DNA of 42,731 nucleotides. It comes from a virus. The position numbers and the translations under genes were made by a program. Where the stretch lies: the IMG/VR virus record IMGVR_UViG_3300031658_000024, positions 1-42,731 of that record; one strand, given 5' to 3'. Position 1 is the first letter of the stretch. Each line of letters opens with the position of its first letter. Below the pieces are notes generated by a model. The model worked only from the letters and a program-made list of their open reading frames with translations. It did not search any database and was not told the DNA's origin. Shown here one piece after another: positions 18,478 through 41,381 of this stretch.

Positions 18478-18492
18478 ATCGCCGGAGGCGAT
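18478..18492 (-). promoter_or_regulatory. GNA-triloop hairpin before the P-loop ATPase gene
   Basis: ATCGCC-GGA-GGCGAT on the plus strand: a perfect 6-bp stem with GGA loop, in the intergenic gap 18447-18493. The loop equals that of the N4 P2 virion-polymerase promoter hairpin, and the plus strand would be the template for the leftward gene. Promoter function is inferred. Confidence 0.45.
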
Positions 18493-18493
18493 A

Positions 18494-20644
18494 CTACAAT
18501 GAGTCTCGTTTGTGTATTGCTTTAGATGCAGTTACCAAAATAGTAGATAAGATTTCTGCTTCGCTCATTTTATCTGATAATTTATTGTTAAGACCAATAA
18601 GATTATTTTGTACGGCATTAATATCCATACCAGAGTCTACAAGCATTAGTGCGTATCTGATATATTGATTGCTACGGTTGCCTGTAGCAGTGTTATCGAT
18701 AAACCATCTCTCAACATTATTAAGAGATTGTTGATCATTGATAACTTTCTTTCTTTCTTCATTTTTAGATGTTTTCGGTATGAAGAGAAGTGAGTCTAAT
18801 AGCTTGCCTGAGTTATACTCATGCTTACCATTAAATGTCTGCCATTTTCTAGATCGTTGATTAGTTTGCTTATCAACATCAAATGGAAGCCATTCAAAAA
18901 TGTTATTCATAAATTCTTTGAACTCATTAGCATCTAACTTAAGTGTATGAGACATTGGAAGCAGCACTCTAAATCGATTAGCTGCATCTGTATGCCTCTT
19001 TGTAGTATATATTAATGAAGTATAATCTCTTAACAGTAGCTGTACTGTGTCCATACTTACACCATCATCAATGTCTAATACTACCATATTAAAGCCAGAA
19101 ATAACATGATCTTCTTTACGATAATTCTCATATAAATGATGAGAAACCCAATGGTAATTAGGCAGTTGAGTTAGCGTGTGAAGCTTGTCAAATGGGACAT
19201 ATTCACATTTGTAATTCTCTGCTAACTGTGTACCGTAAGAGATAACCATCTTGGTTGTATCGGTTTCTTTAAGGGCTTCGCCAATAAGGAATTCAATACC
19301 GTCTGTGATACTTTTCTTAATGATGATATTATTTTTGTAACCATAGGCAATAGCTAGAGTCATCATCTCTCGTTTTTGGTTCTCGCTGCCTTTATAGAAT
19401 GGCAGATCCTCGACCATATCAACGTGAGTAACTTCTCTGCCAATATGTGCAATATAGTTTGCAAGTTTGGTGTAGTTACGCTCTCTCGTTAGTAGTGACT
19501 CAAACGCTTTGCCTGAGTCTTCCACGATCTTGATAGCGTTATATAAGTGATCTTCAGTAAGATCTGGACTGTTATCAATGAATGCATATGTGCCTGCTAA
19601 TTTCAATGTTTTGAAATATCTGTGGGCTACCTCTGCTTTACGAATCTCTTCATGATCAGACAAGCCATTGGCTGCCCTCTCACAAGCGATCTTGTATTCA
19701 ATGAGCAATAAGCTAACACTCTTATCAATATCTATTGTTGTACCGAAGTAAGATGGGTGGGCCAATTTACCTAAGTCATTAGACAGTGTCTGCAAGAAAG
19801 TATTTGCGCTATTATCTGTAAGCATGTCATAGATTTCTTCAGGAGTAAGTGAAGTGTTCCTTGTGGATGATTTAACATATCCAAAGAGACATCTACGTGC
19901 ATAGCCGGTTTCCAACATAGCATAGAATTCTTCTTCTACTCTGCCGCCGTTAAGTAACTTGGCAGGAGTACCGAAGAGCATCATGTTTGTTGGCGTTTTG
20001 CCGTCAATTTCCTCGCCTCGAAGATTCTCTGCAGTGTTTTTGGTTAGTTTTTGTTTAACTTTACCTACGTCAAATAATTCTAAGAATGTGTTAAGTACGT
20101 CAATATTGCCTAAAAGATTTGAGCCAATTTCGTCTATCTCCATATTCATGGATCCACAGTCTGACATCAAAAGCTTTTGACGCATTTGTTTTACAGCTGC
20201 GGTTGTACCACTATCAAACGAGAATGCGAAATTACCTAGGAGTTCAAATTCCTTGGTTGTCCTAAGTAATTCCTCACCTTCATCAACATTCTTTTTGATG
20301 GCTCGCTTAATAGCTAATTTGCCAAGGCTAGCTTCACTCATTTTTGGGAAAGTTTCTTCTAAGAATCTTTCTTTAAATGTGTTAATAACTTGTTCCTCAA
20401 CAATATTGGTTGAATGCCCTTTGCCTTCACCTGAGTAGGCTAGGTTGAGGGCGTAACAGTTTACAGGTATTTTGCCTCTGTCATGAGTATTTACAGATGC
20501 ACGCATCATAGATGCTACTTTAGTAAGGTAGTAAGACACCATTACATGAAAGAATAGTCTGTTAGTGCTTTGTGTTTTTTGGCACAGTACATCCACTAGC
20601 TTGTCAGCTATTGGGTGATAGTCCATTGCGTCATATGATTTCAT
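18494..20644 (-). CDS. DNA primase-helicase-like protein, N4 gp43-type
   Basis: I choose ATG 20644 (MKSYD), with GGAA 8 bases upstream and right after the previous stop, giving 716 residues. The N-terminal half carries a variant P-loop (AYSGEGKGHST, about 69-79) and a Walker B-like MNMEIDEIG, resembling DUF3987-type helicase domains. The C-terminal half holds VVLDIDDG with Asp524 and Asp526, then IYTTKRH and RFRVLLPM, the pattern of archaeo-eukaryotic primase-polymerase proteins. It should prime DNA synthesis for the phage polymerase. The neighbours (ATPase, SSB, resolvase downstream; nuclease upstream) form the N4 replication block. A helicase activity is less certain than the primase call. 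Confidence 0.82.
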   Translation of the reverse strand: MKSYDAMDYHPIADKLVDVLCQKTQSTNRLFFHVMVSYYLTKVASMMRASVNTHDRGKIPVNCYALNLAYSGEGKGHSTNIVEEQVINTFKERFLEETFPKMSEASLGKLAIKRAIKKNVDEGEELLRTTKEFELLGNFAFSFDSGTTAAVKQMRQKLLMSDCGSMNMEIDEIGSNLLGNIDVLNTFLELFDVGKVKQKLTKNTAENLRGEEIDGKTPTNMMLFGTPAKLLNGGRVEEEFYAMLETGYARRCLFGYVKSSTRNTSLTPEEIYDMLTDNSANTFLQTLSNDLGKLAHPSYFGTTIDIDKSVSLLLIEYKIACERAANGLSDHEEIRKAEVAHRYFKTLKLAGTYAFIDNSPDLTEDHLYNAIKIVEDSGKAFESLLTRERNYTKLANYIAHIGREVTHVDMVEDLPFYKGSENQKREMMTLAIAYGYKNNIIIKKSITDGIEFLIGEALKETDTTKMVISYGTQLAENYKCEYVPFDKLHTLTQLPNYHWVSHHLYENYRKEDHVISGFNMVVLDIDDGVSMDTVQLLLRDYTSLIYTTKRHTDAANRFRVLLPMSHTLKLDANEFKEFMNNIFEWLPFDVDKQTNQRSRKWQTFNGKHEYNSGKLLDSLLFIPKTSKNEERKKVINDQQSLNNVERWFIDNTATGNRSNQYIRYALMLVDSGMDINAVQNNLIGLNNKLSDKMSEAEILSTILVTASKAIHKRDSL

Positions 20645-20645
20645 C

Positions 20646-21002
20646 TTATTTCCATTCAAAGTATGCGTGGCCTGTTGCTAAAGAATCTCTATCAATACTA
20701 CCCTGCCATACTCGTGCAATGGCTGATCTAGATTTATTAGTTCCCATTTGACTGTTAACCTCTGCTACGAGTTCATGGGTAGTCACTATTGGCTGTCCAT
20801 TCAGTCTTGCAGTAACATTATACCTTTTTCTTTCAGTGTGCATATGCGTAATGAAATCAAAAGTATACTGAGTAAACGGGGTTGTATCGTGTAATTTACG
20901 AGGGTAAAGCGAAGCTTTACGGGTTAGTTTCGGGTTTAGGAATAGAGAATATCCTAGTAGAGCCGCTGTACTAGACAGCAGGTTGTTGAAATACATTTTC
21001 AT
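20646..21002 (-). CDS. Hypothetical protein between primase and nuclease genes
   Basis: A 118-residue protein starting MKMYFNN behind AAGGAT. The first 25 residues are moderately hydrophobic and could be a signal anchor; the rest is basic and polar (THMHTERKRYNVTARLNG). I do not recognise the family. It sits 16 bases after the nuclease stop and just before primase, so it is probably co-transcribed with them. A 7-bp GAA-triloop hairpin (20904-20920) is embedded in its coding sequence. Confidence 0.7.
   Translation of the reverse strand: MKMYFNNLLSSTAALLGYSLFLNPKLTRKASLYPRKLHDTTPFTQYTFDFITHMHTERKRYNVTARLNGQPIVTTHELVAEVNSQMGTNKSRSAIARVWQGSIDRDSLATGHAYFEWK
20904..20920 (-). promoter_or_regulatory. 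GNA-triloop hairpin with GCGAAGC core
   Basis: GTAAAGC-GAA-GCTTTAC on the plus strand, a perfect 7-bp stem. Its core GCGAAGC is the exceptionally stable DNA mini-hairpin that N4 promoters resemble. It lies inside the 118-residue gene, 260 bases before primase. A promoter role is inferred. Confidence 0.4.
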
Positions 21003-21017
21003 AGTATTATCCTTAAG

Positions 21018-21995
21018 TTACATTTTTAATGAGCCGTCAGCGATATAGTTGTCTTTTTGTTTACAGACATCAAATGCGTCACAATATAGGCATCTTTTTA
21101 CTTCGCCGGGGACTGTCACTACTTCGCCAACGCCGCCGTCTGCGGCTAGTCTACTAATGGCATCCCCATGCACGGCAAAGTTCTTGGTGCTTCGGGCTTT
21201 TTTAGCAGGATTCTTATAATATTTGTGCATTGGAGCAGATCTCCAAAGCTCTTCCTCCGTACAAGGGGGAATGTCTTCTTCTGAGCTGTTCCAATACTGT
21301 TCCATAGCATTAAGCTTATCCACAATATATCTTTGTGTATCTGCTATAGATAATAGCGGCAGTTCCACCGCCATGACTTTGCATGGTGGGTAACTTTGAT
21401 CTGTTTTAGCTTGCATGGCTTTCCAATCTGTAAATACATACTGGATCAGCATATTATTATCAGTAATGATATCTGGACTAAGCCATCTATATATACTTCC
21501 TTGCATCGCAAATTTGTCATTGTTAGTTTTATTTACATAGGTATAGGTGCTTGTAGATTTTACATCTTCAAGCTTTCCATTAAAAACAATGTCATATTTG
21601 CCTGAAATAGTGTAATTACCTACTTTTTTATGAGCACGTTGCTCTAGATACACAGGGATTGGGTCAGAGAGCTCTTTTAAGCGCTCTGGAGTGGCGTTAA
21701 CAACAATTCTGTTAGCGATACTCTCTGGAAGACCTACCTTGCGTAAAAGAGGGACTACATCCCCTGTCCAAGCGTTTTCTACGCTGTCATGAATTGCTGT
21801 TCCAATTCTACTAGCAGCTAGGACATTTACATTTGCTAATCCCGGTTCAGTTTTAACTCTACCTGTCAATATAATTTGCTTGATAGAGTTTAATAAACCA
21901 GTAGCACTTATTGTAAGAGGATCAGTATTATGATCGTAAGTATCATTGGCTAACCATACCTGCATAGACAGGGATATATTAGATGGTAAATTCAT
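21018..21995 (-). CDS. PD-(D/E)XK nuclease (Cas4/RecB-like), N4 gp42-position
   Basis: I choose ATG 21995 (MNLPSN), behind AAAAGGAAAACA; the longer frame runs into the previous gene. The 325-residue protein shows RecB-like nuclease features: GTAIHDSVE (His69), EQR at 119-121, then KYDIVFNG (Asp135) and LEDVKST (Asp144, Lys146), the PD-(D/E)XK core. Near the end is a CLYCDAFDVC cluster (about 298-307) that, with another cysteine, could bind a metal or iron-sulfur cluster. Such enzymes process DNA ends in recombination or degrade host DNA. It is next to the primase block. The nuclease fold is well supported; the exact role is not. Confidence 0.8.
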   Translation of the reverse strand: MNLPSNISLSMQVWLANDTYDHNTDPLTISATGLLNSIKQIILTGRVKTEPGLANVNVLAASRIGTAIHDSVENAWTGDVVPLLRKVGLPESIANRIVVNATPERLKELSDPIPVYLEQRAHKKVGNYTISGKYDIVFNGKLEDVKSTSTYTYVNKTNNDKFAMQGSIYRWLSPDIITDNNMLIQYVFTDWKAMQAKTDQSYPPCKVMAVELPLLSIADTQRYIVDKLNAMEQYWNSSEEDIPPCTEEELWRSAPMHKYYKNPAKKARSTKNFAVHGDAISRLAADGGVGEVVTVPGEVKRCLYCDAFDVCKQKDNYIADGSLKM

Positions 21996-22053
21996 TTGTT
22001 TTCCTTTTTGATCTATATTTTTTCTTTGCTTACTGGTTGAACGTCTTGCAACA

Positions 22054-22341
22054 TCACTCACCGCCTTTTAGGGGAACGTGTATTAATTTCATTATTTCGT
22101 CTAAAGTTATTTCTGCTTCATCTGGCCCCGCACGATTATGAAAAATTAAACTCTCCAAACTTGGTTCCGTCCAAGAACTAGTGCCTTTTTCTATGGCTCT
22201 TTCAATTCGCTCGTCAACACCGTAAAACAATTTATGGTGTTCCCGCATTTCTGCTTCGGTCATTCCATAAGTTACAGGTGCATCAACAACCGTTGACCAT
22301 TCAAAAAATACCCCGTCTTTATGGCAAATATACCTACCCAT
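22054..22341 (-). CDS. Hypothetical protein, 95 residues
   Basis: A short soluble protein starting MGRYICHKDGVFFEW, with an acidic helical middle and end. It overlaps the upstream gene by 8 bases. No motif or family recognised. It belongs to a group of four small overlapping genes between the nuclease and the MGCDIH-family gene. Confidence 0.7.
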   Translation of the reverse strand: MGRYICHKDGVFFEWSTVVDAPVTYGMTEAEMREHHKLFYGVDERIERAIEKGTSSWTEPSLESLIFHNRAGPDEAEITLDEIMKLIHVPLKGGE

Positions 22342-22519
22342 TTTTATCGCTCCCTTGAACTTTAAGTTGAGATTTCAAATTGTTCCATGCAATTATATAA
22401 TTAGAGTATGCATCCTCAACAACACTTATTGGTGATCCCGTATTGATGTAATCCTCAAGAGCGTCAAAAACTTGTGACTTTGTTCTGCAAATATCTTTTA
22501 ATGCTTCATCTTTGTTCAT
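22334..22519 (-). CDS. Hypothetical protein, 61 residues
   Basis: A small, mostly helical polar protein (MNKDEALKDICRTKSQVF) overlapping the next gene by 8 bases. Its start follows a repeated 15-base junction that also occurs 300 bases upstream. Function unknown. Confidence 0.6.
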   Translation of the reverse strand: MNKDEALKDICRTKSQVFDALEDYINTGSPISVVEDAYSNYIIAWNNLKSQLKVQGSDKNG

Positions 22520-22534
22520 TGGCTTGTCCCTCCA

Positions 22535-22837
22535 TCATCCATCTCCCTTTAGTGCTTTTTTAATCCTACCTTTAGGTGTGAACCATTTGACTTTCCAATC
22601 ATTCCATTTATCCATTGCTAACTTGTTTTCGAAATGTAGATTGCATGTAGGCATGGTATTTAACGCCTCACGCAGTCGCTTGTTCTCTGCGAGTGAGAAC
22701 TCCTTGCCCTTATTGTATCCATAAAGGTACGCGATTGTTAAATCATCGTCTGGCTCTTTATCACGCAGTTTCTTATTCTCTGCTTGGAGAGACTTGATCA
22801 AATCTGCTCGTTCTTTTGATATTGGTTCACCCATCAT
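22535..22837 (-). CDS. Hypothetical helical protein, about 100 residues
   Basis: I choose the ATG pair at 22837/22834 (MMGEPIS), which has GGAG just upstream; the longer frame overlaps another gene. The protein starts with a probable coiled coil (ADLIKSLQAENKKLRDKE) and ends with a basic segment (TPKGRIKKALKGDG). The 5' end overlaps the upstream 50-residue gene by 11 bases. Function unknown. Confidence 0.6.
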   Translation of the reverse strand: MMGEPISKERADLIKSLQAENKKLRDKEPDDDLTIAYLYGYNKGKEFSLAENKRLREALNTMPTCNLHFENKLAMDKWNDWKVKWFTPKGRIKKALKGDG

Positions 22838-22979
22838 CCATCTCCTTTTTGCCTTGCTGTCTAATACGTTTGTTAGCACGCTTTTTAATTTTCTTGGCTA
22901 CACCAGGCCGCCAACTCAGTATACGTCTTGATCTAAGTGAAAACCAATCCCACATATCTCCATCACATTTCTGTTTCAT
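22827..22979 (-). CDS. Small basic protein, 50 residues
   Basis: Found by reading the gap: ATG at 22979 behind AAAAGGAGTTGAATA, ending in TGA at 22827. The product begins MKQKCDGDMWDWFSLRS and is strongly basic in the middle (KKIKKRANKRIRQQGKK), which could bind nucleic acid. It overlaps the next gene by 11 bases. The good ribosome site and neat overlap support a real gene; function unknown. Confidence 0.5.
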   Translation of the reverse strand: MKQKCDGDMWDWFSLRSRRILSWRPGVAKKIKKRANKRIRQQGKKEMDDG

Positions 22980-22992
22980 TATTCAACTCCTT

Positions 22993-23415
22993 TTAGTTAT
23001 CAAACCAGAAAACCATACGTGAATTCCTTGGTGAGTGCTTTCCTTCATTTGATTGGGAAAATAAAGTATGTATTTCAATTAACCCACTCAATACACGCCC
23101 ACCTTCTCTTTCTGGGATAAGTGTGAACTCTAGTATATGCTTTTTTAACTTGTTTAGATAAATAAATGACTCTGAATGAGCATCTTCATCCCATTCTTTT
23201 TGGTAATACTCATGGAGCCCTTCTGATATATCATCAGGAAGTCCTAGTGCGGGTAAACTATCTAATCTTTCGTTTCTAACCCCTGCTAGAAATCCGAATA
23301 AATCGTAATTTCTGCCAATTATAGAATAATATGTCCTATGATCTAATGGGTCTTCCGCAGGAATCCAAACGTCATTGACTTTATGCTCAATATAGCAGTG
23401 TATATCACATCCCAT
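22993..23415 (-). CDS. MGCDIH-family phage protein
   Basis: The N-terminus MGCDIHCYIEHK and the motif YDLFGFLAGVR (about 37-47) are marks of a common phage protein family of unknown function, usually 130-180 residues; this one has 140. The start ATG overlaps the DNA polymerase stop (TAATG), so the two are probably translated together. The conserved Cys-Asp-His may bind a metal, but no activity is known to me. Confidence 0.8.
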   Translation of the reverse strand: MGCDIHCYIEHKVNDVWIPAEDPLDHRTYYSIIGRNYDLFGFLAGVRNERLDSLPALGLPDDISEGLHEYYQKEWDEDAHSESFIYLNKLKKHILEFTLIPEREGGRVLSGLIEIHTLFSQSNEGKHSPRNSRMVFWFDN

Positions 23416-25964
23416 TATGGATTCTCCTGAATGATTTGTTTAATAGTGGTCTTTGTAACTTTGTTAGGCAAAGTGTAGTTCTGATTCCAACTTGGATAGA
23501 ATATATCAACTTCACCACCTAATTTTACTGTAGGGTGTGCGAGCTCTGGTAAATCTTGCCACTCCATACATTCAATCAGGTTGTCGTTAAACCATTTAAC
23601 GGCACCGTAGGTGTCTTTCACTATAAAATATAGTGCATCATGTATCTGTGCTATAGGCATAATATCTAACGCATATTTAGAGGCTAGTGTTCTTTTCTGA
23701 AACTCTACGCCTGCCCTATTAGTTAATAGGCCATAGCTCTGTCCTAAAGAGTTGCCTGCAGTTCTACTCTCTGCTCTGGCTTCTTTAGGTGTAGACTTTT
23801 TATTTAAATATGTCTGGGATAGTATAGGTGTACGCACTCTAAGACCAAAAGCTACAGTGACGTGACCGTCTATTGTTGCTTGGTCTAGTTTAGAGGCTAC
23901 CCATGCATCAGATACTTTATAAAGTTCATGGTAGTTAGCGTCTATTCTAAAGGCTTCTTTAGCTGACAATCCTACATTATCCATTAGACCGAAGGTCGTT
24001 CCTCCATAGGTCAAAAGGAATGTAGGAGCTTTAGAATCTTGCCTAAGTTTAGGATATTTCTTGGCTATGCTGTTGATACTGGTGACTGTATCTACGATAC
24101 CTGTCATCTGATCACCAAAGTAGCTATAAGCTCTGAGACAATGACCATCATAACCATCAGTATACACTTTAAGTTTATTAGGATCTTTAGTTGTTAGGGC
24201 TGATATTCTGTCTTCTAAAGAAGCAAAGTCAGCCCCCATCATTAACCATCCAGGTGGTGCTTTAAAGCACCCCTTGATATATTTAGCATAAATAGTCCCA
24301 GTACTTGGGATGTTTTGTAGATTTGGATCTGAGCTAGAGAGCCTACCACTGACTACAACACCTAGGTTAAAGTTTCCATACATATAGTAGAAACCATCTG
24401 TTTTCTGAGCGCTCTTGGCGTAGAAATTCTTAATAAAATTATTAAGGATAATGGAGACTTCTTGTAATCCAACCAAGGCTGTAAGAATTGTAGTGTGCTC
24501 GGCATCTTTAGATTTGAGCAGTAACTTTTTGATAGTCTTAGCTCCAACACCTGCTTCGCCGGTTTTGGTAAGATCAAGCTTATCGTAACCCATTACATTA
24601 TACAGCAAGTTCCTTGTCTGTAGGTTACTTGCTGGGTTGTAAGTAATATTGTCAAAGTCCTCAAGAGGTTTAACCTTAACTTTAAGGAGTAAGTTTTTCT
24701 TGAAACACTCCTCTTTACGCAATTGGATAATGTAATTTTTAATTAGATCTGTTTGGAATAGGGATTGAGTGAATGTTCTATGGATGTTGGTCAGGTCATG
24801 TTGACTAACACTAACCTCCCCAATATCTATAGGCATCCCTACCAATTCCATTTGAAGAAGGTTTTTAATACTAGGTATTAAGACATTGTTATACACACCT
24901 TCTTGTTGATCTTGGATTAGAGTAGGCCAGTATTTATTTTTGACATACCATGTAGATAAGCAATCAATTAAATTGTATTGAAGCAAAGCGTCATTATCAA
25001 TCAAAGTGATATCTTTAATATCTTCCTGAGCATAGTTACCAGCGAACTCTTGAGCCAAGTCTTTTAGACTACGGCTCAGACGAGTTGTGCTGTTTGTAGC
25101 GCAGTAGGCTATGATTTTAGTGTCATGAATGGATCGTGTCATTACTTCCAGGCCTTGGAGCATAGCGGGATAGTTAATGCCCTCAGCTCTCATCCATAGC
25201 TCATAGATAAGCACTTTGATATCATAACTGCCGTTATGGAATATAAGTGTGCCTTTATAATCTGTGAAGAAATCTTTGAGCTTGTCATATATCTCATCCT
25301 TTTGTGGAGTATCTATACGAAAGGCTAATCCATTATTTTCATTCCACGCAAAGGCAATAGTGCCTAGTTTTGCTTCTGGAAGGAATAAGGAGAAGGTTTC
25401 AATATCACAAGCCAATTCTTTGTATTGGTGTAGCTCATTGAGCGCTAATGTAATATCTTCAAGAGTTGATGGATAATGTGCTGAGTGAATTATTGACGCT
25501 CCTGGAGATAAGTATAATCCAGATAGCTGTTGTTGCACTGTAGATAGAGAGGCGTCAAGTTTTTCCTGCAATGATGGGTTATAAAATAGGGCTTTGTAAT
25601 TGATACCAAGTACCACTTTCATATGCTCAAAGCCTTCAATAGCGCAATCCATTACATATCCATAATGTGGCTCTGCTTTGCGTTGCTTTGTGAGAGTCTT
25701 AAAGTATGCTGAATCACATACATAAAGAATCTTTACGTCTAAGCCATCAGCTGCTTTCAGTACATTTTGTAAATGCTTTTTAATTAGTTTGACTGGGGCT
25801 TTATCATTGATATCGTATTTTAAGCTTAAAGCTATAAAGTCTTCCGGAGGAATTGAGGATTTGTTGATATACTCTTTTCTTAATTCTTTTTCTTTAAAGG
25901 CGATTTCTTTTATAAGAATAGCTACTTTAAATGAAGTATTTGTTTCGAATATTATGTGCCGCAT
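23415..25964 (-). CDS. Family A DNA polymerase with 3'-5' exonuclease domain (N4 gp39-like)
   Basis: The 849-residue replicative polymerase has a proofreading domain (ACDIETF with Asp187/Glu189, LIFHNGSYDIKVL, YNLIDCLSTWYV) and the family A core: motif A MGADFASLEDR (Asp579), motif B RQDSKAPTFLLTYGG, motif C IHDALY (Asp776). It has about 150 extra N-terminal residues compared with T7 gp5. The start has only a weak ribosome site and lies 5 bases after the previous stop, so coupling to the MGYRSDV gene is likely. A 16-base perfect palindrome (24256-24271) and two 4-bp GNA-type hairpins lie in the coding sequence. Confidence 0.96.
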   Translation of the reverse strand: MRHIIFETNTSFKVAILIKEIAFKEKELRKEYINKSSIPPEDFIALSLKYDINDKAPVKLIKKHLQNVLKAADGLDVKILYVCDSAYFKTLTKQRKAEPHYGYVMDCAIEGFEHMKVVLGINYKALFYNPSLQEKLDASLSTVQQQLSGLYLSPGASIIHSAHYPSTLEDITLALNELHQYKELACDIETFSLFLPEAKLGTIAFAWNENNGLAFRIDTPQKDEIYDKLKDFFTDYKGTLIFHNGSYDIKVLIYELWMRAEGINYPAMLQGLEVMTRSIHDTKIIAYCATNSTTRLSRSLKDLAQEFAGNYAQEDIKDITLIDNDALLQYNLIDCLSTWYVKNKYWPTLIQDQQEGVYNNVLIPSIKNLLQMELVGMPIDIGEVSVSQHDLTNIHRTFTQSLFQTDLIKNYIIQLRKEECFKKNLLLKVKVKPLEDFDNITYNPASNLQTRNLLYNVMGYDKLDLTKTGEAGVGAKTIKKLLLKSKDAEHTTILTALVGLQEVSIILNNFIKNFYAKSAQKTDGFYYMYGNFNLGVVVSGRLSSSDPNLQNIPSTGTIYAKYIKGCFKAPPGWLMMGADFASLEDRISALTTKDPNKLKVYTDGYDGHCLRAYSYFGDQMTGIVDTVTSINSIAKKYPKLRQDSKAPTFLLTYGGTTFGLMDNVGLSAKEAFRIDANYHELYKVSDAWVASKLDQATIDGHVTVAFGLRVRTPILSQTYLNKKSTPKEARAESRTAGNSLGQSYGLLTNRAGVEFQKRTLASKYALDIMPIAQIHDALYFIVKDTYGAVKWFNDNLIECMEWQDLPELAHPTVKLGGEVDIFYPSWNQNYTLPNKVTKTTIKQIIQENP

Positions 25965-25968
25965 TTTA

Positions 25969-26322
25969 CTAAAAATCCTTGTTTACTTCAAAAGGCATAT
26001 CCAAAAATCTGGATACAGAAAGTTCGAAGTTGTATGGGTCTCCGTGTTTATCAATATCATCATCATGTTCTCCAAGTCTAATAAACCCATAGGCAATATT
26101 TTGATCATCTAAGTGGCTCATGAATCTCTCTATTTCTGCTATGCTGACATAGCTCTCATACCATTTGATATGAGAGGCAGTAAGGTAAACTGTATTGCCA
26201 ATGTCTGTTTTTTTAAACACCTCGGAATTGTTAAGTAAAGGGGGAAATGTATTTTCCAACAAAATTGCTGTAAAATGGTCTTCCTTATACATAGCAAAAA
26301 CAACATCTGATCTATACCCCAT
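25969..26322 (-). CDS. MGYRSDV-family phage protein
   Basis: The N-terminus MGYRSDVVFAMYKE is the signature of a widespread small phage protein family of unknown function; 117 residues is usual. The rest is acidic, with a mixed alpha/beta look (IAYGFIRLGEHDDDID). It overlaps the upstream gene by 11 bases and ends 5 bases before DNA polymerase, so the three are probably one unit. Confidence 0.78.
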   Translation of the reverse strand: MGYRSDVVFAMYKEDHFTAILLENTFPPLLNNSEVFKKTDIGNTVYLTASHIKWYESYVSIAEIERFMSHLDDQNIAYGFIRLGEHDDDIDKHGDPYNFELSVSRFLDMPFEVNKDF

Positions 26323-26854
26323 CTGTTAATAACTTTCCCATCAAATATTGTTTAAACAAATCTATCATTGCACGATGCTTAATGAGAAAGTTATTTCTAA
26401 TACTTTTCTCTAATCGAGTGTCCTCGCTAACATAGATGTATTTAGTTTCATCACGTAAACTGGTGTGATACGCCGGAGGCGTAAGTGCTAATACATCACC
26501 GAAGGTTTCCGCTATCACAAAGACGTCTCTAAGATAACATATTATGTTCTTTTTATCTTTTTGTAGTTCTTTTTTGTTAGCAATTAATTCATCCATAGCA
26601 GGATGGTATTCTTTGGGAAGCTCTACACGTTTCTCCCAACTCTTGTAAAGGCCGTTGACTCTATCAAAGACTTTCCCTTGGTGGAAAAATCCACAAACAG
26701 TATTAGATTCAAATCCGCTAGTATTTTCACATAGTATTTTGTGTACTAATCTTTCCATACTTTTTTGATTAAGTACAAAATCCTCTAGGAGGACTTTTTC
26801 AGATAAAGATAGATGGATCTCGTATCCTATCTGTTGGTCTAATCTAATTGCCAT
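26312..26854 (-). CDS. Hypothetical protein, 180 residues
   Basis: A soluble, mostly helical protein between the Dda-like helicase and the MGYRSDV gene, overlapping both by 11 bases. No recognised domain. A perfect 6-bp GGA-triloop hairpin (26469-26483) lies in the part coding LTPPAY. Co-translation with the helicase suggests a replication accessory role, but this is context only. Confidence 0.7.
   Translation of the reverse strand: MAIRLDQQIGYEIHLSLSEKVLLEDFVLNQKSMERLVHKILCENTSGFESNTVCGFFHQGKVFDRVNGLYKSWEKRVELPKEYHPAMDELIANKKELQKDKKNIICYLRDVFVIAETFGDVLALTPPAYHTSLRDETKYIYVSEDTRLEKSIRNNFLIKHRAMIDLFKQYLMGKLLTDGV
26469..26483 (-). promoter_or_regulatory. GNA-triloop hairpin inside the 180-residue gene
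   Basis: TACGCC-GGA-GGCGTA on the plus strand, perfect 6-bp stem, upstream of the MGYRSDV and DNA polymerase genes in the leftward direction. Same core (GCCGGAGGC) as the intergenic copies. Function inferred. Confidence 0.4.
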
Positions 26855-30766: not shown

Positions 30767-30779
30767 CAGCCGGAGGCTG
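30767..30779 (-). promoter_or_regulatory. GNA-triloop hairpin before the tRNA-like leader
   Basis: CAGCC-GGA-GGCTG on the plus strand, 5-bp stem, preceded on the template side by CAAAAA. The order CC/GC, A-run, stem, GGA loop is close to N4 P2 (ATCC, AAAA, GAAGC, GGA, GCTTC). It lies between two genes, about 160 bases before the MoxR start. Confidence 0.45.
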
Positions 30780-33345: not shown

Positions 33346-33705
33346 TTAGCATGATTTTGTTACTGCTGCTGTTTGTAGCGCTTCAAACTGGCCTTTTAAA
33401 CGAGAGTATTCTGCAGCTTCCGCTCCATCACCACCCTCAACAAAAATCAAAGCAGGCCAGAAAACCAGTAACCCTAAACCTACCTGCCAATTATCTGTAT
33501 CAGATTCTTTTTTAAGGGTATTGTACAAGACCTGAATTCGTCTGCTAGTGTTCTCTGACTCCATACCTATTTGTTTGCAAGTGAAGTCTGTATATTTCAT
33601 AGGAGAAACATAAGAGCTTTGCATTTTATCTGGTGATGACGCACACGCAGATAAAATAACTACTGCTGTAAAAGCAGCTATTGTTGATTTAATTGTATTA
33701 AACAT
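33346..33705 (-). CDS. Lipoprotein, probable accessory (moron-type) gene
   Basis: The 119-residue product has a lipoprotein signal: a hydrophobic segment (about 8-20) ending in lipobox LSAC with Cys21, followed by Ala-Ser-Ser (no Asp at +2, so outer-membrane sorting is expected). The mature part has conserved-looking Cys at YTDFTCKQIG and at the C-terminus (KSC), plus a hydrophobic LGLLVFWPALIFVEGGDG. Similar small lipoproteins are chromosomally encoded in Gram-negative bacteria. In a phage it could alter the host surface, for example excluding other phages; that is inference. It has its own leader and a GNA hairpin 35 bases upstream. Confidence 0.78.
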   Translation of the reverse strand: MFNTIKSTIAAFTAVVILSACASSPDKMQSSYVSPMKYTDFTCKQIGMESENTSRRIQVLYNTLKKESDTDNWQVGLGLLVFWPALIFVEGGDGAEAAEYSRLKGQFEALQTAAVTKSC

Positions 33706-33724: not shown

Positions 33725-33886
33725 TTAATGAATTGCATCACTTGCCGGAGGCAAGTTACCTAACTCCATTTCATCTATAAAATATTGCACTCTGCAGGCC
33801 TCACTACAGAAGTGTTCTGAAAACATACGATATAATGTATCGGATTCTGGTGAGTATTCTTTGTCGCATTGTGCGCAATAATTCAA
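33725..33886 (-). CDS. Small zinc-finger protein, TTG start
   Basis: Found by hand: the frame opens with TTG at 33886, overlapping the upstream stop by 4 bases, and ends at TAA 33725. The 53 residues hold CAQC (Cys4, Cys7) and CSEAC (Cys27, Cys31), a likely four-cysteine zinc site like those of FYVE/MYM-type small fingers. Coupled translation could explain the TTG start. The GGA-triloop hairpin 33740-33756 is inside its 3' part (coding NLPPAS). Confidence is moderate because of the rare start. Confidence 0.55.
   Translation of the reverse strand: MNYCAQCDKEYSPESDTLYRMFSEHFCSEACRVQYFIDEMELGNLPPASDAIH
33740..33756 (-). promoter_or_regulatory. GNA-triloop hairpin before the lipoprotein gene
   Basis: ACTTGCC-GGA-GGCAAGT on the plus strand: the longest stem with the GGA loop (7 bp, perfect). 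It ends 35 bases before the lipoprotein start, within the end of the zinc-finger gene. Possible virion-polymerase promoter for a separately expressed lipoprotein; inferred. Confidence 0.45.
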
Positions 33887-34329
33887 AAATCTAACCTCTT
33901 TTTAATTATGGCTTTTACAGATGTAACAGTTCTGCCTAGCATTTTAGCTATTACAGGATATGGTGCTCCGCTGTGCTTCAGTAATGCCACTAATTCAAGC
34001 TCTTCCTTTGTCCAGTGTTTCCCTGGAATATGTGGAGTGATAGAGCGTGTAAGCTTATTTATTTGTTTTTTGTCTACTTTTTTAAAAACAGTAGGCTGAA
34101 CCATTGATGATATTGGGTCATACCCTTCTGGGATGTGGTTCTTTATGCCTAGAAGGAAAGCCACTAAATTAGCTATAGAGCCAGATGCCCCGTTAATAAT
34201 TACATTCTGTACATATGCTTCACTGACATTAATATAACGCATGATCTCATGTCTTAAGGATTGATGAGTCATTTCTGACATGCCCATTGCAAGGATTATC
34301 TTATTGGAGGGCAGAATTGTATCTCTCAT
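33883..34329 (-). CDS. DNA-binding protein with Myb/SANT-like C-terminus
   Basis: I choose ATG 34329 (MRDTIL) with AAAGGTG upstream; a GTG at 34338 would add three residues. The 148-residue protein ends in a helix-turn-helix repeat WTKEELELVALLKHSGAPYP ... AKMLGRTVTSVKAIIKKRL, a pattern of Myb/SANT-like or GcrA-like domains. The N-terminal part is hydrophobic-helical. It may be a phage transcription regulator. Expression may start at the hairpin 34490-34504, and the leader holds two further hairpins. Confidence 0.7.
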   Translation of the reverse strand: MRDTILPSNKIILAMGMSEMTHQSLRHEIMRYINVSEAYVQNVIINGASGSIANLVAFLLGIKNHIPEGYDPISSMVQPTVFKKVDKKQINKLTRSITPHIPGKHWTKEELELVALLKHSGAPYPVIAKMLGRTVTSVKAIIKKRLDF

Positions 34330-34357
34330 GTTATTCACCTTTTAAATAATTAGTAGA

Positions 34358-34427: not shown

Positions 34428-34489
34428 TGTTGATTAATGACTTAATTATCAGAATAATCAAGCTTATTCTGCATAAATCGTCCAAAAAA

Positions 34490-34504
34490 GCAGCCGTAGG
34501 CTGC
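34490..34504 (-). promoter_or_regulatory. GNA-triloop hairpin with TCC-A-run context (best N4-like promoter candidate)
   Basis: GCAGCC-GTA-GGCTGC on the plus strand, perfect 6-bp stem, preceded by GTCCAAAAAA. N4 P2 on its template strand reads ATCC, AAAA, stem, GGA loop, stem. The site lies in a 295-base gene-free stretch, downstream of a strong terminator, which is where a new promoter would be needed. Confidence 0.5.
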
Positions 34505-34580
34505 TAATCATAGGGCATAGGTAGTGTATAGTAGAAGAGGCACGGTTTTGAAAAGTTAGTATATCGGTTTAGATGTTTTT

Positions 34581-34633: not shown

Positions 34634-35632
34634 TTAACTTAGTGCATAATCAGCACTAGTCATACAAGTATGTAAATTGTTTGACAACTTAATATGTTGT
34701 AAATCATTGTCATCTGTAATTTCCCGTAGAATATCCCCAAGAAGGTCACTTAGAGTTATTTCTATAAGAATGTCTAGATAGTTCTGCCTCACTTCATTCA
34801 TATGATTTGGCGAAGCCCAGAAACTATCATGTATTGTGGGCAAAGCAAATCCCATTAGGTCAGCTCTTCTGACCATCTCTCTTACAATGTAGCCATCTAT
34901 ACTATGTATTATGTTGGCCGCAAGAGATAGTCCTTTAGCCGCAGGCTTATTTTCATAAGCTCTGAAGGTATAAGTGGCATGATTTAGCTCATCTATTTCA
35001 ACCTTTTTATCAATGGCTTGCATAACTGGCACTCTTGCCACATGCCCGTCTGGTAACGTCCATTGGTGAGTTAACGCAAAAGGGTTCCAGCAATCTTGCA
35101 TGTCTTTCATACATTCCATAGCTCCTGGGAGTTGCTCTGTAATTATATTATGAAATTGCTTTAATTCATCAGTGCCTTTTCCGAATAACTCTTCAGGCTG
35201 TTTCTTTGACCCGTAAAATGTAGTCATTACAGGTTTCTTGACATCTGCTTTAGAATAGCTCAGGCCAGTAACTTTATTGACTCGGTCTGCAACTTTACTA
35301 TAAATGTCTTCTCGTTTACCAGTATCGGCTAAATTCACATTGGCCGCAGTGGTATGGCAACCAATTAAGCAGGCCATGATTTGTAGCCCAGATGCTGTAG
35401 CGTCTAGACCCATGATAAATCCTGTAGCCTTGCCCTTCTCAGCGTCTCTGAGAGCTCTAACGGCCTTGGCGTATAGAATAGGCTCTTTTGCTATTAACTC
35501 TAAATCCTCAAGGACTTTTATATTAGTATTAGTCCAGTGGATTCTTTCTTTCCAAGTCTTTTTATCAAACTCATAGCCATATTGATTAGCAATGTCTATT
35601 TTGATGTATTCTATTCCAGTAAATTTCTTCAT
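34634..35632 (-). CDS. Phage RNA polymerase II, catalytic C-terminal subunit (N4 gp16-like)
   Basis: The 332-residue protein contains the catalytic motifs of T7-type polymerases: motif A GLDATASGLQ (Asp77), motif B DVKKPVMTTFYGSK (Lys132, Tyr140), motif C PTIHDSFWA (His268, Asp269). It lacks the N-terminal part, which is a separate gene two genes upstream. In N4, gp15 and gp16 make the heterodimer that transcribes middle genes. It is somewhat shorter than N4 gp16 (about 400). TTGGAGAG precedes the ATG, and a strong terminator follows the stop. Confidence 0.93.
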   Translation of the reverse strand: MKKFTGIEYIKIDIANQYGYEFDKKTWKERIHWTNTNIKVLEDLELIAKEPILYAKAVRALRDAEKGKATGFIMGLDATASGLQIMACLIGCHTTAANVNLADTGKREDIYSKVADRVNKVTGLSYSKADVKKPVMTTFYGSKKQPEELFGKGTDELKQFHNIITEQLPGAMECMKDMQDCWNPFALTHQWTLPDGHVARVPVMQAIDKKVEIDELNHATYTFRAYENKPAAKGLSLAANIIHSIDGYIVREMVRRADLMGFALPTIHDSFWASPNHMNEVRQNYLDILIEITLSDLLGDILREITDDNDLQHIKLSNNLHTCMTSADYALS

Positions 35633-36104: not shown

Positions 36105-36998
36105 TCATTTTATTACCTCTCTCTTAGTGAGATTAATTAAGGCTTTCTTATAGCTTGTTGATTGAATGTTTACTTCGTGACCTTGTGAATATACTCTGCC
36201 ACGTTTATCAAACCTCCAGTTTAGATAGAAACAATTACCATAATTAATAAGATCACGATACACACGCCTAGAGCTGACTATCATTCTTAAGAAGTTGGTC
36301 ATCTTTTCTGGTGTATCAATATCTTTCTTAGGCTTTTCCTCTAATTCTAGAGTAGCTCTATCAAGACTCAAGGGTATCTTTGCCAAGATGTTTAACACAT
36401 CTATGGCTTGGTATTCTTCATGGTGGTTATTTGCACCAAGAATGACACTTTCATCATATGTAAGATAACCCCCTTGAGAGTTATTATTAATAACTTCTGG
36501 TTCACAGAGCATAGGTGGAAGAAACTTCATAGAGGCTATCTTTTGAAGAGTTTCATCATCCACCTGTAAACAAGGCTCAATAAGTATGCTCCCTGTTTTA
36601 CTATTCTTGGCTAAGATAATATTGTATAAGCCAGCGTCTTTAGACACTGCTAGTATCTCACTAGCTGTCTTAACATTATCCATGACATCAGGGAACTCAA
36701 ATAGTGTTCCTATGCTCGCCGCTATTGATTGAATAGGTCTTTGCCCAGTCTCACTCAGTATGTTTAATAACAACTCGTTGACTATCTCTTGTACTGGCAC
36801 AGTACTTCTTAAGTGAGCTACTCTCTTATTCTTACTGGCGTAGTATGGCTTAGTTAGATAAGTAATAATAGCTTTACTAATAGATCTGCTTACATCTTTA
36901 AGATCAGAAGCTTCTACCACTTCTCTTACTAACTTGCGTTTGTTCTTTCTTGAATACGTGTCTTCTATACCTTTTTGTCTATTTCTTGTTACTAACAC
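36105..36998 (-). CDS. Phage RNA polymerase II, N-terminal subunit (N4 gp15-like), GTG start
   Basis: The 297-residue protein matches the N-terminal part of T7-type polymerases: PPMLCEPE (161-168, like the PPML segment of T7 polymerase) and WRFDKRGRVYSQG (261-273) with the TxxGR-type arginine Arg268 near the end. The split falls between this motif and motif A, as in N4. The start is GTG 36998, with AAGGAG 8 bases upstream. It should pair with the catalytic subunit encoded at 34634-35632. A GAA-triloop hairpin lies 47 bases before the start. Confidence 0.9.
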   Translation of the reverse strand: MLVTRNRQKGIEDTYSRKNKRKLVREVVEASDLKDVSRSISKAIITYLTKPYYASKNKRVAHLRSTVPVQEIVNELLLNILSETGQRPIQSIAASIGTLFEFPDVMDNVKTASEILAVSKDAGLYNIILAKNSKTGSILIEPCLQVDDETLQKIASMKFLPPMLCEPEVINNNSQGGYLTYDESVILGANNHHEEYQAIDVLNILAKIPLSLDRATLELEEKPKKDIDTPEKMTNFLRMIVSSRRVYRDLINYGNCFYLNWRFDKRGRVYSQGHEVNIQSTSYKKALINLTKREVIK

Positions 36999-37044: not shown

Positions 37045-37059
37045 CTTGCCGAAGGCAAG
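37045..37059 (-). promoter_or_regulatory. GNA-triloop hairpin before the split RNA polymerase genes
   Basis: CTTGCC-GAA-GGCAAG on the plus strand, perfect 6-bp stem, with GCCAAAAGAC on the downstream template side. It lies between a terminator (37147-37176) and the polymerase start at 36998, a fitting place for an early promoter driving RNA polymerase II. Confidence 0.5.
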
Positions 37060-37478: not shown

Positions 37479-37509
37479 AATTATATCCTTTCAGGATTTG
37501 TTGGGGATA

Positions 37510-37857: not shown

Positions 37858-37878
37858 AATAGTTCCTTTCATATATGT

Positions 37879-38470: not shown

Positions 38471-38473
38471 GAG

Positions 38474-38719: not shown

Positions 38720-38867
38720 TATAGTTCTCCTCTTTGAGGTTACATAATACTACGTCAGCATCACATTCAGTATCATTTGATACTTCTGCATACTCACAAT
38801 GAAGTGGTTGAGTATACCCGTCACCGAGTAATGAACCACCACAACTTTCACATATATATTCAATCAT
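38706..38867 (-). CDS. Small cysteine protein, 53 residues
   Basis: Found by hand: ATG 38867 with GGAGAATCC upstream, stop TAA 38706, overlapping the genes on both sides. It has CESC (6, 9), then Cys24, Cys35 and Cys42: a zinc-ribbon-like start with an acidic remainder. One of three consecutive overlapping cysteine-pair genes. Confidence 0.6.
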   Translation of the reverse strand: MIEYICESCGGSLLGDGYTQPLHCEYAEVSNDTECDADVVLCNLKEENYNGSN

Positions 38868-39012
38868 GATGGATTCTCCCATTAACGAACTCTTCTTGTT
38901 CTTTATAATAAAGTTCCATATCAGCTTGACGCTCGGTATGGCATTCTAAGCAAACAACCTCTTCTTCAATAAGAAGCTCATTGTTGCAATCATCACATTT
39001 ACGTATTGTCAT
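38860..39012 (-). CDS. Small zinc-ribbon protein, 50 residues
   Basis: Found by hand: ATG 39012 behind AGGAGAATTAAT; stop TGA overlaps the next start. CDDC (6, 9) and CLEC (21, 24) form a compact four-cysteine zinc ribbon followed by an acidic helix (ERQADMELYYKEQEEF). It has a hairpin with an ATAA loop 20 bases before its ribosome site. Likely an early host-takeover or nucleic-acid-binding protein; function unknown. Confidence 0.65.
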   Translation of the reverse strand: MTIRKCDDCNNELLIEEEVVCLECHTERQADMELYYKEQEEFVNGRIHHD

Positions 39013-39044
39013 ATTAATTCTCCTATTATGACAGTTGTACTGTA

Positions 39045-39062
39045 GGCGACATTATTGCCGCC
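39045..39062 (-). promoter_or_regulatory. Leader hairpin with ATAA loop (1)
   Basis: Minus strand GGCGGCA, ATAA, TGTCGCC: 7 pairs with one mismatch, 20 bases before AGGAGA of the zinc-ribbon gene. First of three equal leaders in the early region; may protect the mRNA 5' end. Confidence 0.45.
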
Positions 39063-39074
39063 CACTAGTTATAC

Positions 39075-39614
39075 TTATCTTATGTTTGGACGATACACAT
39101 TAGGCATAATCCAACCAGCACTGCCTGCACATTCTCTTTGTGAACGTGGAGATTTTGTAGCTTTATACTGATAAGGAGTAGCAAGCTCCTCGTGCTCGAT
39201 TTCAGTAAGCTCCTCAGAAGAGATAACGACACCTTCCCAAAGGTCTTCGCTAGATATAGTATCACGAAGTGATACCTCTTCCTGATGCTCCTCACAGGCG
39301 TGCATATCATTGAGCAACGCAATACGTTGCGGACAATCATGCGCCCACACTACATTGCGTGATGCCATAGACACGATAGTGCCTTTGGCTGTCACGAAGT
39401 ACTTCTGGTTATCATAGCTACCAATAAAGCATTTACGTAATGCAGTTTGTTGAAGATGACCAGTACTAACAAGTTTATTCTTGTTAGAACCTTTCAAAGT
39501 AGGATTGATAAGACAAGTCTTCTCTTTGCTTACATCTACAGCTAAGTAAAGAGCTGATGGTGAATTCTTAGTACCAAAGCGAACCCAGTCGCCACTAACG
39601 ATAGTATTTGTCAT
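39075..39614 (-). CDS. Early hypothetical protein, 179 residues
   Basis: A soluble protein: a beta-rich N-terminal part (SGDWVRFGTKNS; YFVTAKGTIVSM), then an acidic segment (ACEEHQEEVSLRDTISSEDL) and a basic end. AGGAGA precedes the ATG, with an ATAA-loop hairpin and a GGA-triloop hairpin in the leader. Not recognised; early timing is inferred from position. Confidence 0.72.
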   Translation of the reverse strand: MTNTIVSGDWVRFGTKNSPSALYLAVDVSKEKTCLINPTLKGSNKNKLVSTGHLQQTALRKCFIGSYDNQKYFVTAKGTIVSMASRNVVWAHDCPQRIALLNDMHACEEHQEEVSLRDTISSEDLWEGVVISSEELTEIEHEELATPYQYKATKSPRSQRECAGSAGWIMPNVYRPNIR

Positions 39615-39641
39615 AATTTATCTCCTATATATGACATTGAT

Positions 39642-39667
39642 GTTGAGTATCATTATTGATATTCAAC
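39642..39667 (-). promoter_or_regulatory. Leader hairpin with ATAA loop (2)
   Basis: Minus strand GTTGAATATCA, ATAA, TGATACTCAAC: 11 pairs with one wobble, 15 bases before AGGAGA of the 179-residue gene. Same layout as at 39045 and 40115. Confidence 0.5.
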
Positions 39668-39671
39668 AGAC

Positions 39672-39686
39672 GGCACAGGATGTGCC
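39672..39686 (-). promoter_or_regulatory. GNA-triloop hairpin in early gene leader
   Basis: GGCACA-GGA-TGTGCC on the plus strand, perfect 6-bp stem, GGA loop closed by A-T. It lies in the gap before the 179-residue gene, just upstream of its leader hairpin. A good early-promoter position. Confidence 0.5.
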
Positions 39687-39692
39687 TTGGTA

Positions 39693-40088
39693 TTAATTAC
39701 TTAACATAACCTCTAGGTCAGTCTGAACAGACGTACCTAGGTCTGTAAACATAATACCATGTTTATAGACGAAGTGTTCCGCTGTAGGTTGTTCAGCATT
39801 GTCTTGGACAAATGCATCGAACATCCAGCGAAGAGCCGTAGAGTAGTCACCAGCGCCCGATTGGGTCACTTGTGATATGAGACTCATGAAACGAGCATCA
39901 AGCACTTTCAGTGCCTCTTCCTCTTGCGCTCTGAGTACTTCTCCTTCTGCTTGAAGGATAAGCATATCATCAAGAAACTGTTCTTCAGTTTCTGGCACAC
40001 AATGCCTTGGTTTAAAGCCATGTATATCTTTATATACATTTATGAAACACTCTTGCGAAGCAACGGATATTGGTGTTTGATTAGTCAT
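39693..40088 (-). CDS. Early hypothetical protein, 131 residues
   Basis: A soluble protein. The segment CFINVYKDIHGFKPRHC (about 14-30) recalls a motif in other phage hypothetical proteins (YKDxxGxxPRH). An acidic coiled-coil-like stretch follows (EEQFLDDMLILQAEGEVLRA). AGGAGA precedes the ATG, with an ATAA-loop hairpin 15 bases further upstream. Function unknown. Confidence 0.72.
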   Translation of the reverse strand: MTNQTPISVASQECFINVYKDIHGFKPRHCVPETEEQFLDDMLILQAEGEVLRAQEEEALKVLDARFMSLISQVTQSGAGDYSTALRWMFDAFVQDNAEQPTAEHFVYKHGIMFTDLGTSVQTDLEVMLSN

Positions 40089-40100
40089 GATATTCTCCTA

Positions 40101-40260
40101 TGAATGACTATTACTTTCTTGGATTATTCCAAGAAAAGAAATGAAGAGTAAAGCTAAAGCTTTACACTTACCTCTACCCCCAACTCGTTGGGCCCTTAGT
40201 ATAAGATAGAGCGTGTGTAGTGGGTGCTTACCCACTATATACGTGCTCTCTTATAATGTG
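40101..40260 (-). ncRNA. Multi-hairpin leader of early gene
   Basis: Four hairpins in 150 bases: 40115-40136 (TTTCTTGGA stem, ATAA loop on the minus strand, third copy of the leader hairpin), 40148-40165 (GTAAAGCT stem), 40179-40192 (CCCAAC/GTTGGG), and 40201-40254 (ATAAGA + GAGC + 13-bp stem with G-U pairs, loop AAGC on the minus strand). It lies between a terminator and the 131-residue gene; no credible reading frame inside. Probably a structured 5' leader. Confidence 0.45.
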
Positions 40261-40271
40261 TGTGAGTGTGT

Positions 40272-40317
40272 AAAAAAAAAGGTACACTATATGCATCTTA
40301 GCATATAGGGTACCTTT
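40272..40317 (-). terminator. Strong rho-independent terminator
   Basis: On the minus strand AAAGGTAC, C, CTATATGC, TAAGAT, GCATATAG, T, GTACCTTT continued by a run of T (AAA AAA AAA at 40272-40280 on the plus strand). A 16-bp stem with one mismatch, right after the first early gene. Confidence 0.88.
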
Positions 40318-40323
40318 AGGGTT

Positions 40324-40587
40324 CTATTCCTCTTTGGGAATAGGTTCCTTTGGAGCTTCAATTGCATCCACTTGATGCATATTGTTTAGCTCCGCCAGAG
40401 AGACCTGGCTCCACTTGGAGACATGTTGATCTGTCGTATCAACGACATTGTAGACGAGATCGCACATCTTCTGTGCGATGTTGGCTACAGACTTGTCGTT
40501 GGTAATGAGGATACCGCAGACGGCCTCTATGCCTTCTGTGGTAGCCGAGGAGATCGAGCTGATTGGAGCGAAGAGCTTATTAGTCAT
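40324..40587 (-). CDS. First early gene, hypothetical protein of 87 residues
   Basis: I choose ATG 40587 (MTNKLFAP) behind AAAGGAATTCAAC. The protein has a helical middle and an acidic proline-rich end (EAPKEPIPKEE). It is the gene nearest the presumed genome end and is followed by a strong terminator, so it is probably the first made. Family not recognised. GC content is higher than its neighbours. Confidence 0.68.
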   Translation of the reverse strand: MTNKLFAPISSISSATTEGIEAVCGILITNDKSVANIAQKMCDLVYNVVDTTDQHVSKWSQVSLAELNNMHQVDAIEAPKEPIPKEE

Positions 40588-41082
40588 GTTGAATTCCTTT
40601 ATGAGACATGGCGTGAGCACGGAGTGATCACTTGCCTAGGCAGCCAACTCGTTGGCTAGCTGTGTAGACGAACAGATAAATCCCCTCTTAGGGGGGGTTA
40701 GCTGTGAGTACTAGTCATGTATATACTGTACTGACTTCGTATCTAAATTTTATTTTTCTGGAAAATGCTGATTTGTAAAAAAATTCTCATAAAAAAAAAT
40801 ATTGTGAATTTGTATAGAGCCACTAACCATGCCACTATTTGTTGTTGTGAAGGGCGGGGTTAGTAAGTCTTGATGGATTTCTTATGCCACTATTAATAGA
40901 CGCTCCTATATAGAGTTACTCTTGCCCCGCTGCGCGGCGCACCGTAATCTAATAGTCGCTACTTATAATAGGGGGTGTGGTTTGGGGTTGTTGTTGTAAG
41001 CGATCGCCGTTGTACGATGAACGAGTGCCCGCAGCGAAGCGAAGGTGCCGAGTGAGGGAAGTGCACAAGGTGAGAGCGTTTA

Positions 41083-41112
41083 TTTGTATTGGTTTGTATT
41101 GTTTTGTATGGG
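41083..41112. repeat. 10-bp tandem repeat, three units
   Basis: TTTGTATTGG, TTTGTATTGT, TTTGTATGGG in a row. Purpose unknown; could be a protein-binding array or slippage product. Confidence 0.6.
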
Positions 41113-41267
41113 TCTCTATAAAACGCCCCTCCGGTGGTGAACTGCGCGAGTTACCAGCAGAGGGGGTTCCAGATCTTTAGGAGCACGATCGGAGGGAAGT
41201 ATAGCAGAATATATAGGTTTGTCAAAAAGAGGGAGTTATTCAGGAGTATGCAGTAGGGAAGTCGCCA

Positions 41268-41298
41268 TGTTATTGAGCGGCGGAGCCGGGAAATAACA
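41268..41298 (-). promoter_or_regulatory. Composite hairpin with inner CGGC-GGA-GCCG
   Basis: Outer stem TGTTATT/AATAACA (7 bp) around inner stem CGGC-GGA-GCCG on the plus strand, separated by 3-base internal loops. The GGA loop and strand match the other candidate virion-polymerase promoters; location is in the presumed early promoter region. Confidence 0.4.
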
Positions 41299-41370
41299 CT
41301 GGATACTTTTCTACAAGCAACGAGTGTTTAGGAGGAGAAAACCATAGATCGAGAATGGTCGAATGCTAGA

Positions 41371-41381
41371 CGCCGAAGGCG
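41371..41381 (-). promoter_or_regulatory. Short GNA-triloop hairpin
   Basis: CGCC-GAA-GGCG on the plus strand, 4-bp stem, in the region before the early genes. Weak alone; counted because of loop type and strand. Confidence 0.3.

Follow-up and report, generated by a model that had tools for sequence, protein, structure and literature searches.

The window studied here is a stretch of viral DNA of 42,731 nucleotides (IMG/VR record IMGVR_UViG_3300031658_000024, positions 1 to 42,731). Its leftward genes, in a block taken as 16000-41500, are accompanied by short hairpins that carry a GNA triloop (N, any base) on the + strand, the template strand for these genes. As argued below, the hairpins are probably promoters for RNA polymerases encoded by the phage itself.

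Judged by its genes, the window is a fragment of a schitovirus, a distant relative of phage N4. As in other Schitoviridae, a giant virion RNA polymerase (vRNAP), a heterodimeric RNA polymerase II (RNAPII) and an N4-type replication module are all encoded, and the leftward block holds the N4 set of replication genes. The vRNAP gene (4429..15990, + strand) codes for a 3853 aa homologue of N4 gp50 that matches the N4 gp50 structures (E 9e-25). This protein keeps the residues aligned with R424, D559, R666, K670, Y678 and D951 of N4 mini-vRNAP. The region contacting the promoter in N4 (D901/R904, specificity loop) is not alignable in the window vRNAP, so that specificity is not readable from the alignment. 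The T7-like RNAPII is encoded on the - strand by RNAP1, its first subunit (36105..36998; PHROG 2166, E 2e-62), and RNAP2, its second (34634..35632; PHROG 2051, E 9e-110). RNAP2 has relatives in 850 phage records, the closest in the phage collection being that of Alteromonas phage A5 (44% identical). A nearest-phage DNA comparison found no DNA-level relative of the window in this collection. Relatives were gathered with the primase as query; an RNAP2 query yielded two loci only.

Template-strand hairpins in the leftward block

Five hairpins, all on the + strand, lie between genes. Upstream of RNAP1, CTTGCC-GAA-GGCAAG (37045..37059) is located 54 nt before the gene start, with a GG in the sense strand 15 nt past the loop centre. 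AGCAGCC-GTA-GGCTGCT (34489..34505) precedes by 159 nt a regulator-like gene (33883-34338); it has a GG at 14 nt and a T6 tail, which makes it terminator-like too. ACTTGCC-GGA-GGCAAGT (33740..33756) is found 43 nt before the gene 33346-33705, and CAGCC-GGA-GGCTG (30767..30779), followed by a T5 tail, 73 nt before an operon encoding an ATPase and an HNH protein. The last one, ATCGCC-GGA-GGCGAT (18478..18492), separates the primase gene from a Sak4-like gene.

The strand bias is far above expectation, as estimated from 200 dinucleotide-preserving shuffles. GNA stems of at least 6 bp number 10 on the + strand and 1 on the - strand of the block (shuffle mean 0.5, maximum 3). For C-closed GNA stems of at least 5 bp, the numbers are 8 and 1 (mean 0.21, maximum 2), and for the core GCC-GNA-GGC (GCCGNAGGC) they are 9 and 0 (mean 0.095, maximum 2). 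The original prediction, made from the sequence of the window, of a one-sided GNA-hairpin family in this block is thus borne out by scanning both strands. Intergenic DNA makes up about 15% of the block, yet contains five of the eight C-closed GNA stems of at least 5 bp. When perfect GC-rich triloop stems of at least 6 bp are considered in intergenic stretches up to 40 kb, 6/6 have GNA on the template strand. Folding with DNA parameters gave equal energies for both strands; the model has no GNA bonus and cannot tell the strands apart.

Conservation in relatives

A sister contig, G018, is collinear with the window from 16.3 to 37 kb (71-89% DNA identity). All five intergenic sites keep their position and core in it, some with compensatory changes in the stem, so that the hairpins are indeed conserved in relatives. 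The 18478 hairpin is identical in the sister, as are the inner stem, loop and downstream flank of the 33740 site. At the 37045 site, the sister has CTCGCC-GGA-GGCGAG, the change of CTTGCC/GGCAAG to CTCGCC/GGCGAG being compensatory. The 30767 hairpin becomes AATAGCC-GTA-GGCTATT, with an inner stem changed from CAGCC/GGCTG to TAGCC/GGCTA. At the 34489 site, the loop base and the outer stem are altered (CAGCC-GAA-GGCTG).

The relationship between the two contigs is uneven. Primase and Sak4 are 98% identical and RNAP2 80%; vRNAP is only 26.5% identical, and the hairpin core is nonetheless kept. Replication genes as a whole show 85-98% protein identity, and DNA similarity starts at window position 16320. 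As these identities indicate, the vRNAP side has been swapped against the replication module.

A more remote contig, G004 (73.7 kb, primase 79% identical), keeps the Sak4 and ATPase sites. The stem at its Sak4 site is largely replaced (CCTGCC-GAA-GGCAGG), the hairpin before its ATPase gene is that of the window (CAGCC-GGA-GGCTG), and AATGCC-GGA-GGCATT is found upstream of RNAP1. Between primase and Sak4, at least 10 distinct viruses, LUZ7 and VBP47 among them, have a triloop hairpin, the stems differing and the tip being C(GNA)G in most. In the alignment, all six pairs vary on both sides without a broken cell, the 100% pairing resulting in part from the choice of junction sequences that had a hairpin. 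Two features were not selected for: the sense loop is T-Y-C in 9/10 (TTT in L021) and the closing pair is C-G in 9/10.

Applied strictly, conservation leaves about five or six sites, fewer than in the list first drawn up. All 13 hairpins of that list are present with the loops given for them; the one placed at 34490 with 6 bp has 7 bp and starts at 34489. Three GNA stems had been overlooked, at 24286 (TATTTA-GCA), 36797 (GTACTG-GCA) and 39266 (GTATCAC-GAA, 7 bp), and one stem of 6 bp with the reverse loop, said to be absent, does exist (31013, GGGTAT-TTC-ATACCC). That the hairpins mostly precede gene starts is true of the five intergenic sites and not of two members that sit within genes, TACGCC-GGA-GGCGTA (26469..26483, + strand, in gene 26312-26854) and GTAAAGC-GAA-GCTTTAC (20904..20920, + strand, in gene 20646-21002). 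Neither was found in the sister contig and both are uncertain. GGCACA-GGA-TGTGCC (39672..39686, + strand), 65 nt before the gene 39075-39614, is a weaker, A-T closed candidate in a region absent from the sister. Hairpins of 4 bp are individually weak, including CGGC-GGA-GCCG and CGCC-GAA-GGCG (41278..41381, + strand) in non-coding DNA that precedes the early block. Clustered GTGCACCC/GGGTGCAC palindromes occupy 41415-41480, within the long non-coding DNA that separates the leftward block from the rightward genes, perhaps near a genome end.

Hairpin classes across Schitoviridae

The survey covered 18 schitovirus genomes, then six fresh ones for the comparison of early and middle sites (about two dozen relatives overall). 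It looked for C(TNC)G stems of at least 5 bp in the mRNA sense, equal to C(GNA)G on the template. Across the 18 genomes, the sense strand of the early and middle genes bears 163 such hairpins, the opposite strand 19. Ranking all closed triloops on stems of at least 6 bp by frequency puts C(TCC)G, C(TTC)G and C(TAC)G in the first three places. Control phages gave next to nothing on their two strands (T7 2/0, lambda 0/0, part of T4 0/1). In N4, the scan recovers the promoters P1, P2 and P3 plus one coding match within the vRNAP gene. N4, with which the abundance in the window had been contrasted as odd, represents the low end: many schitoviruses carry 8-20 hairpins (VBP47 15, A5 11, ImVa1 18, VCO139 14, PG11 13, KpCHEMY26 20). 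Some C(TNC)G hairpins of the classes proposed below are annotated as terminators in GenBank (Pollock 9209-9221 and 18161-18173; Pylas 2545-2577). Vibrio phage PG11 also has, at 22303-24288, a further gene annotated as DNA-directed RNA polymerase (about 660 aa), in addition to those for vRNAP and both RNAPII subunits.

N4 promoters have their loop centre at position -11, with GG at +1 of the sense strand (PMC4496689). Outside the window clade, a GG 11-15 nt past the loop centre was observed 50 times, with about 14 expected. The distance differs between genome regions, as seen in KpCHEMY26, where GG tends to lie at 11 in early sites and at 14 in middle intergenic ones. With the early/middle split made at RNAP2, GG is at most 13 nt away in 29 early and 11 middle sites of the discovery genomes, and at 14 in 2 early and 15 middle sites (Fisher 2.9e-5). 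The GG search in this set started one base earlier and the few early sites that scored 8 were dropped, which did not create the difference. The six fresh genomes gave 18:0 for early and 2:12 for middle sites (Fisher 4e-7), a p value that overstates independence because Pylas, SP-058 and Pollock form one subfamily sharing many sites. The GG at 14 nt also occurs independently at some sites of VBP47, VCO139 and ImVa1. The stem differs too, with a C beside the closing C in 19/62 early versus 51/87 middle sites. These data support the existence, family-wide, of two putative hairpin classes, an early one with GG at 11, as in N4, and a middle one with the core CC(GNA)GG and GG at 14. The window sites carry the middle-type core. 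In PG11, ImVa1 and VCO139, several middle hairpins have GTGA or TGAA about 11-14 nt on, replacing GG, possibly a lineage-specific start motif.

Promoter function, alternatives and known systems

We consider it probable that the hairpins are template-strand DNA promoters for phage-encoded single-subunit RNA polymerases, well beyond the three of N4. Three sets of sequence observations lead to this reading. In the window, the strand bias is far over shuffles, and the intergenic sites stand before operons, with position and core conserved and compensatory pairing. In the family, the C(GNA)G rule is general, GG occurs at the N4 start distance and the early/middle difference held in fresh genomes. 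Finally, the same scan recovers N4 P1-P3, and the window vRNAP is of N4 type, its catalytic residues conserved. In such a scheme, a C-closed GNA triloop on a 5-7 bp stem would be extruded, or exposed as single-stranded DNA, on the + strand; in N4, extrusion involves supercoiling by gyrase and the single-stranded-DNA-binding protein (SSB). The polymerase would bind stem and loop and begin the RNA some 11-15 nt past the loop centre.

Several observations weigh against a promoter role, or against promoters of the N4 vRNAP type. In the window, GG is found at 34489 (14 nt) and 37045 (15 nt) only; the N4-like spacing of 11 nt, taken as a sequence proxy for the start, does not occur, the 18478 hairpin has no GG within 15 nt and the precise N4 start motif is absent at most sites. 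Position -8 is C at 5/5 sites (GCC core); N4 needs a G there, contacted by R904. Only the 37045 site precedes the RNAPII genes, 4/5 sites being downstream of them and thus outside the early region. The early region of the window clade itself (37.2-41.7 kb) has no clear early-class set and hardly any C(GNA)G upstream of RNAP1. The relatives behind the family-wide numbers are not statistically independent. The 30767 and 34489 hairpins have T5-T6 tails and, together with 37045, pass a terminator scan, albeit a loose one. Separately, the early region of G004 shows stems with ACC loops in place of C(GNA)G (CTATGCGC-ACC-GCGCATAG).

The terminator-like features define the main rival, namely that the leftward mRNA would end genes with intrinsic terminators made of GC-rich stems, UNC loops and, for some, U-rich tails. 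Middle sites do lie between genes, and three family members, two middle ones in Pollock and an early one in Pylas, bear a terminator annotation. However, only 17/163 family members have 5 T in 8, and a terminator needs neither a GNA loop, nor a C-G tip, nor a GG at fixed distance. Hairpins also precede genes that are first in line and have nothing upstream of them (N4 and VCO139; also, close to where the record begins, Pylas, SP-058 and Pollock), and none was found at 4/4 convergent block ends checked. The same genomes have, next to the hairpins, separate terminators marked by a tetraloop and a long U tract. Termination is therefore disfavoured and, overall, unlikely as an explanation, a dual role being possible at the two sites with T5-T6 tails. 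Stems acting as RNA, in mRNA processing or stability, would equally be placed in likely transcribed leaders, as all sites are, and pairing would be conserved either way. We find this very improbable: the invariant letters are the template-strand G and A, which form the sheared G-A pair of the N4 DNA loop; we know of no RNA reason for a UNC loop; and the stem would be outside the RNA if GG marks the start.

Replication might also use such structures, as priming or polymerase-loading hairpins on single-stranded DNA. A lagging-strand signal would give the same strand bias, several sites are near replication genes, and the N4 vRNAP is reportedly needed for N4 replication. Yet the sites are fixed before gene starts, a GG resembling a transcription start follows in relatives, and hairpins are not proportionate on the same strand across the late half, which leaves this idea with a very slim chance. 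Chance or codon bias may account for 4-bp members and for the two intragenic hairpins, whose counterparts were not found in the sister. For the five conserved sites, chance is ruled out by the shuffles, the intergenic location, the compensatory conservation and the recurrence across the family. A mobile hairpin, suggested in the original prediction, was rejected since stems are unlike from site to site, contrary to what is expected of a repeat, and positions are conserved. Taken together, chance, codon bias and mobility are scarcely credible.

If the hairpins are promoters, the one before RNAP1 is most likely served by the vRNAP, as RNAPII does not yet exist at that point. Either the vRNAP or the T7-like RNAPII may read the middle sites (before Sak4, the ATPase-HNH operon and the genes ending at 33705 and 34338), with little to choose between them. 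Retention of the core beside a sister vRNAP of such low identity leans to RNAPII or another conserved factor for these sites, and makes the vRNAP no more than a candidate reader. Moreover, N4 vRNAP promoters are confined to the left end, and four copies of the enzyme would be too few for many promoters (PMC4496689). Conversely, the case for RNAPII is weakened because the site before RNAP1 shares the core and must fire before RNAPII exists, unless it merely amplifies. The suggestion that hairpins may also drive replication genes agrees with the conservation of the hairpins that precede Sak4 and the ATPase-HNH operon. Tentatively, many schitoviruses could use early hairpins for vRNAP (start at 11) and CC(GNA)GG hairpins (start at 14) directing RNAPII to middle and replication genes.

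Were this so, structure-based promoter recognition would be common to two different single-subunit polymerases, and the hairpin-less middle promoters of N4 would be the exception. It would also suggest how an N4-type RNAPII, which binds only single-stranded DNA and works with the single-stranded-DNA-binding gp2 (PMC4496689), finds its promoters. If relatives carry 8-20 promoters, many before replication genes and with two start distances, the model of the early-to-middle switch changes. A simple promoter search rule would become available for many uncharacterised schitoviruses, some with hairpins now annotated as terminators. Hairpin promoters in the middle region appear unreported: published counts are three per genome, early only, and no report of middle-region hairpins was found in the literature searched, subscription papers and bioRxiv preprints being mostly outside that search.

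The resemblance to N4 vRNAP promoters is real but incomplete. N4 P1-P3 (PMC4496689) are template-strand hairpins with a 5-7 bp stem and a C-closed GNA triloop, located before genes transcribed from that strand in a phage that encodes the cognate giant vRNAP. The five intergenic window sites, with stems of 5-7 bp and a 3-nt loop, fit this design, and conserved position and pairing, together with the family-wide GG distance, also argue for likeness. The central purine of the loop (-11) is kept at 4/5 sites (GGA/GAA), the one GTA loop being at 34489, where the sister has GAA. Besides this loop, the C at -8 and the GG at 14-15 or absent set the window apart. The N4 promoters are three and all early, whereas most window sites are in the middle/replication region.

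Predicted hairpins with 3-nt loops on the early strand were also found by inspection in LUZ7/LIT1 (PMC3715699) and Pectobacterium phage CB1 (PMC6027278). They are three per genome and early only, those reports giving no middle-region hairpins; the present scan detects additional C(GNA)G hairpins in LUZ7. The N4 RNAPII middle promoters serve the same temporal region and genes as the window sites, where the spacer between stem and GG is T-rich. Their minimal element is AT-rich, from -7 to +2, with no hairpin described (PMC4496689), and our scan of N4 finds the interval from RNAP2 to SSB free of C(GNA)G hairpins. The Humphriesvirinae (Pylas, KpCHEMY26, SP-058, Pollock) differ from the window clade by a GG at exactly 14 nt at most intergenic middle sites and by their separate early class at 11, and share with the window the CC(GNA)GG core on 6-7 bp stems located between middle genes.

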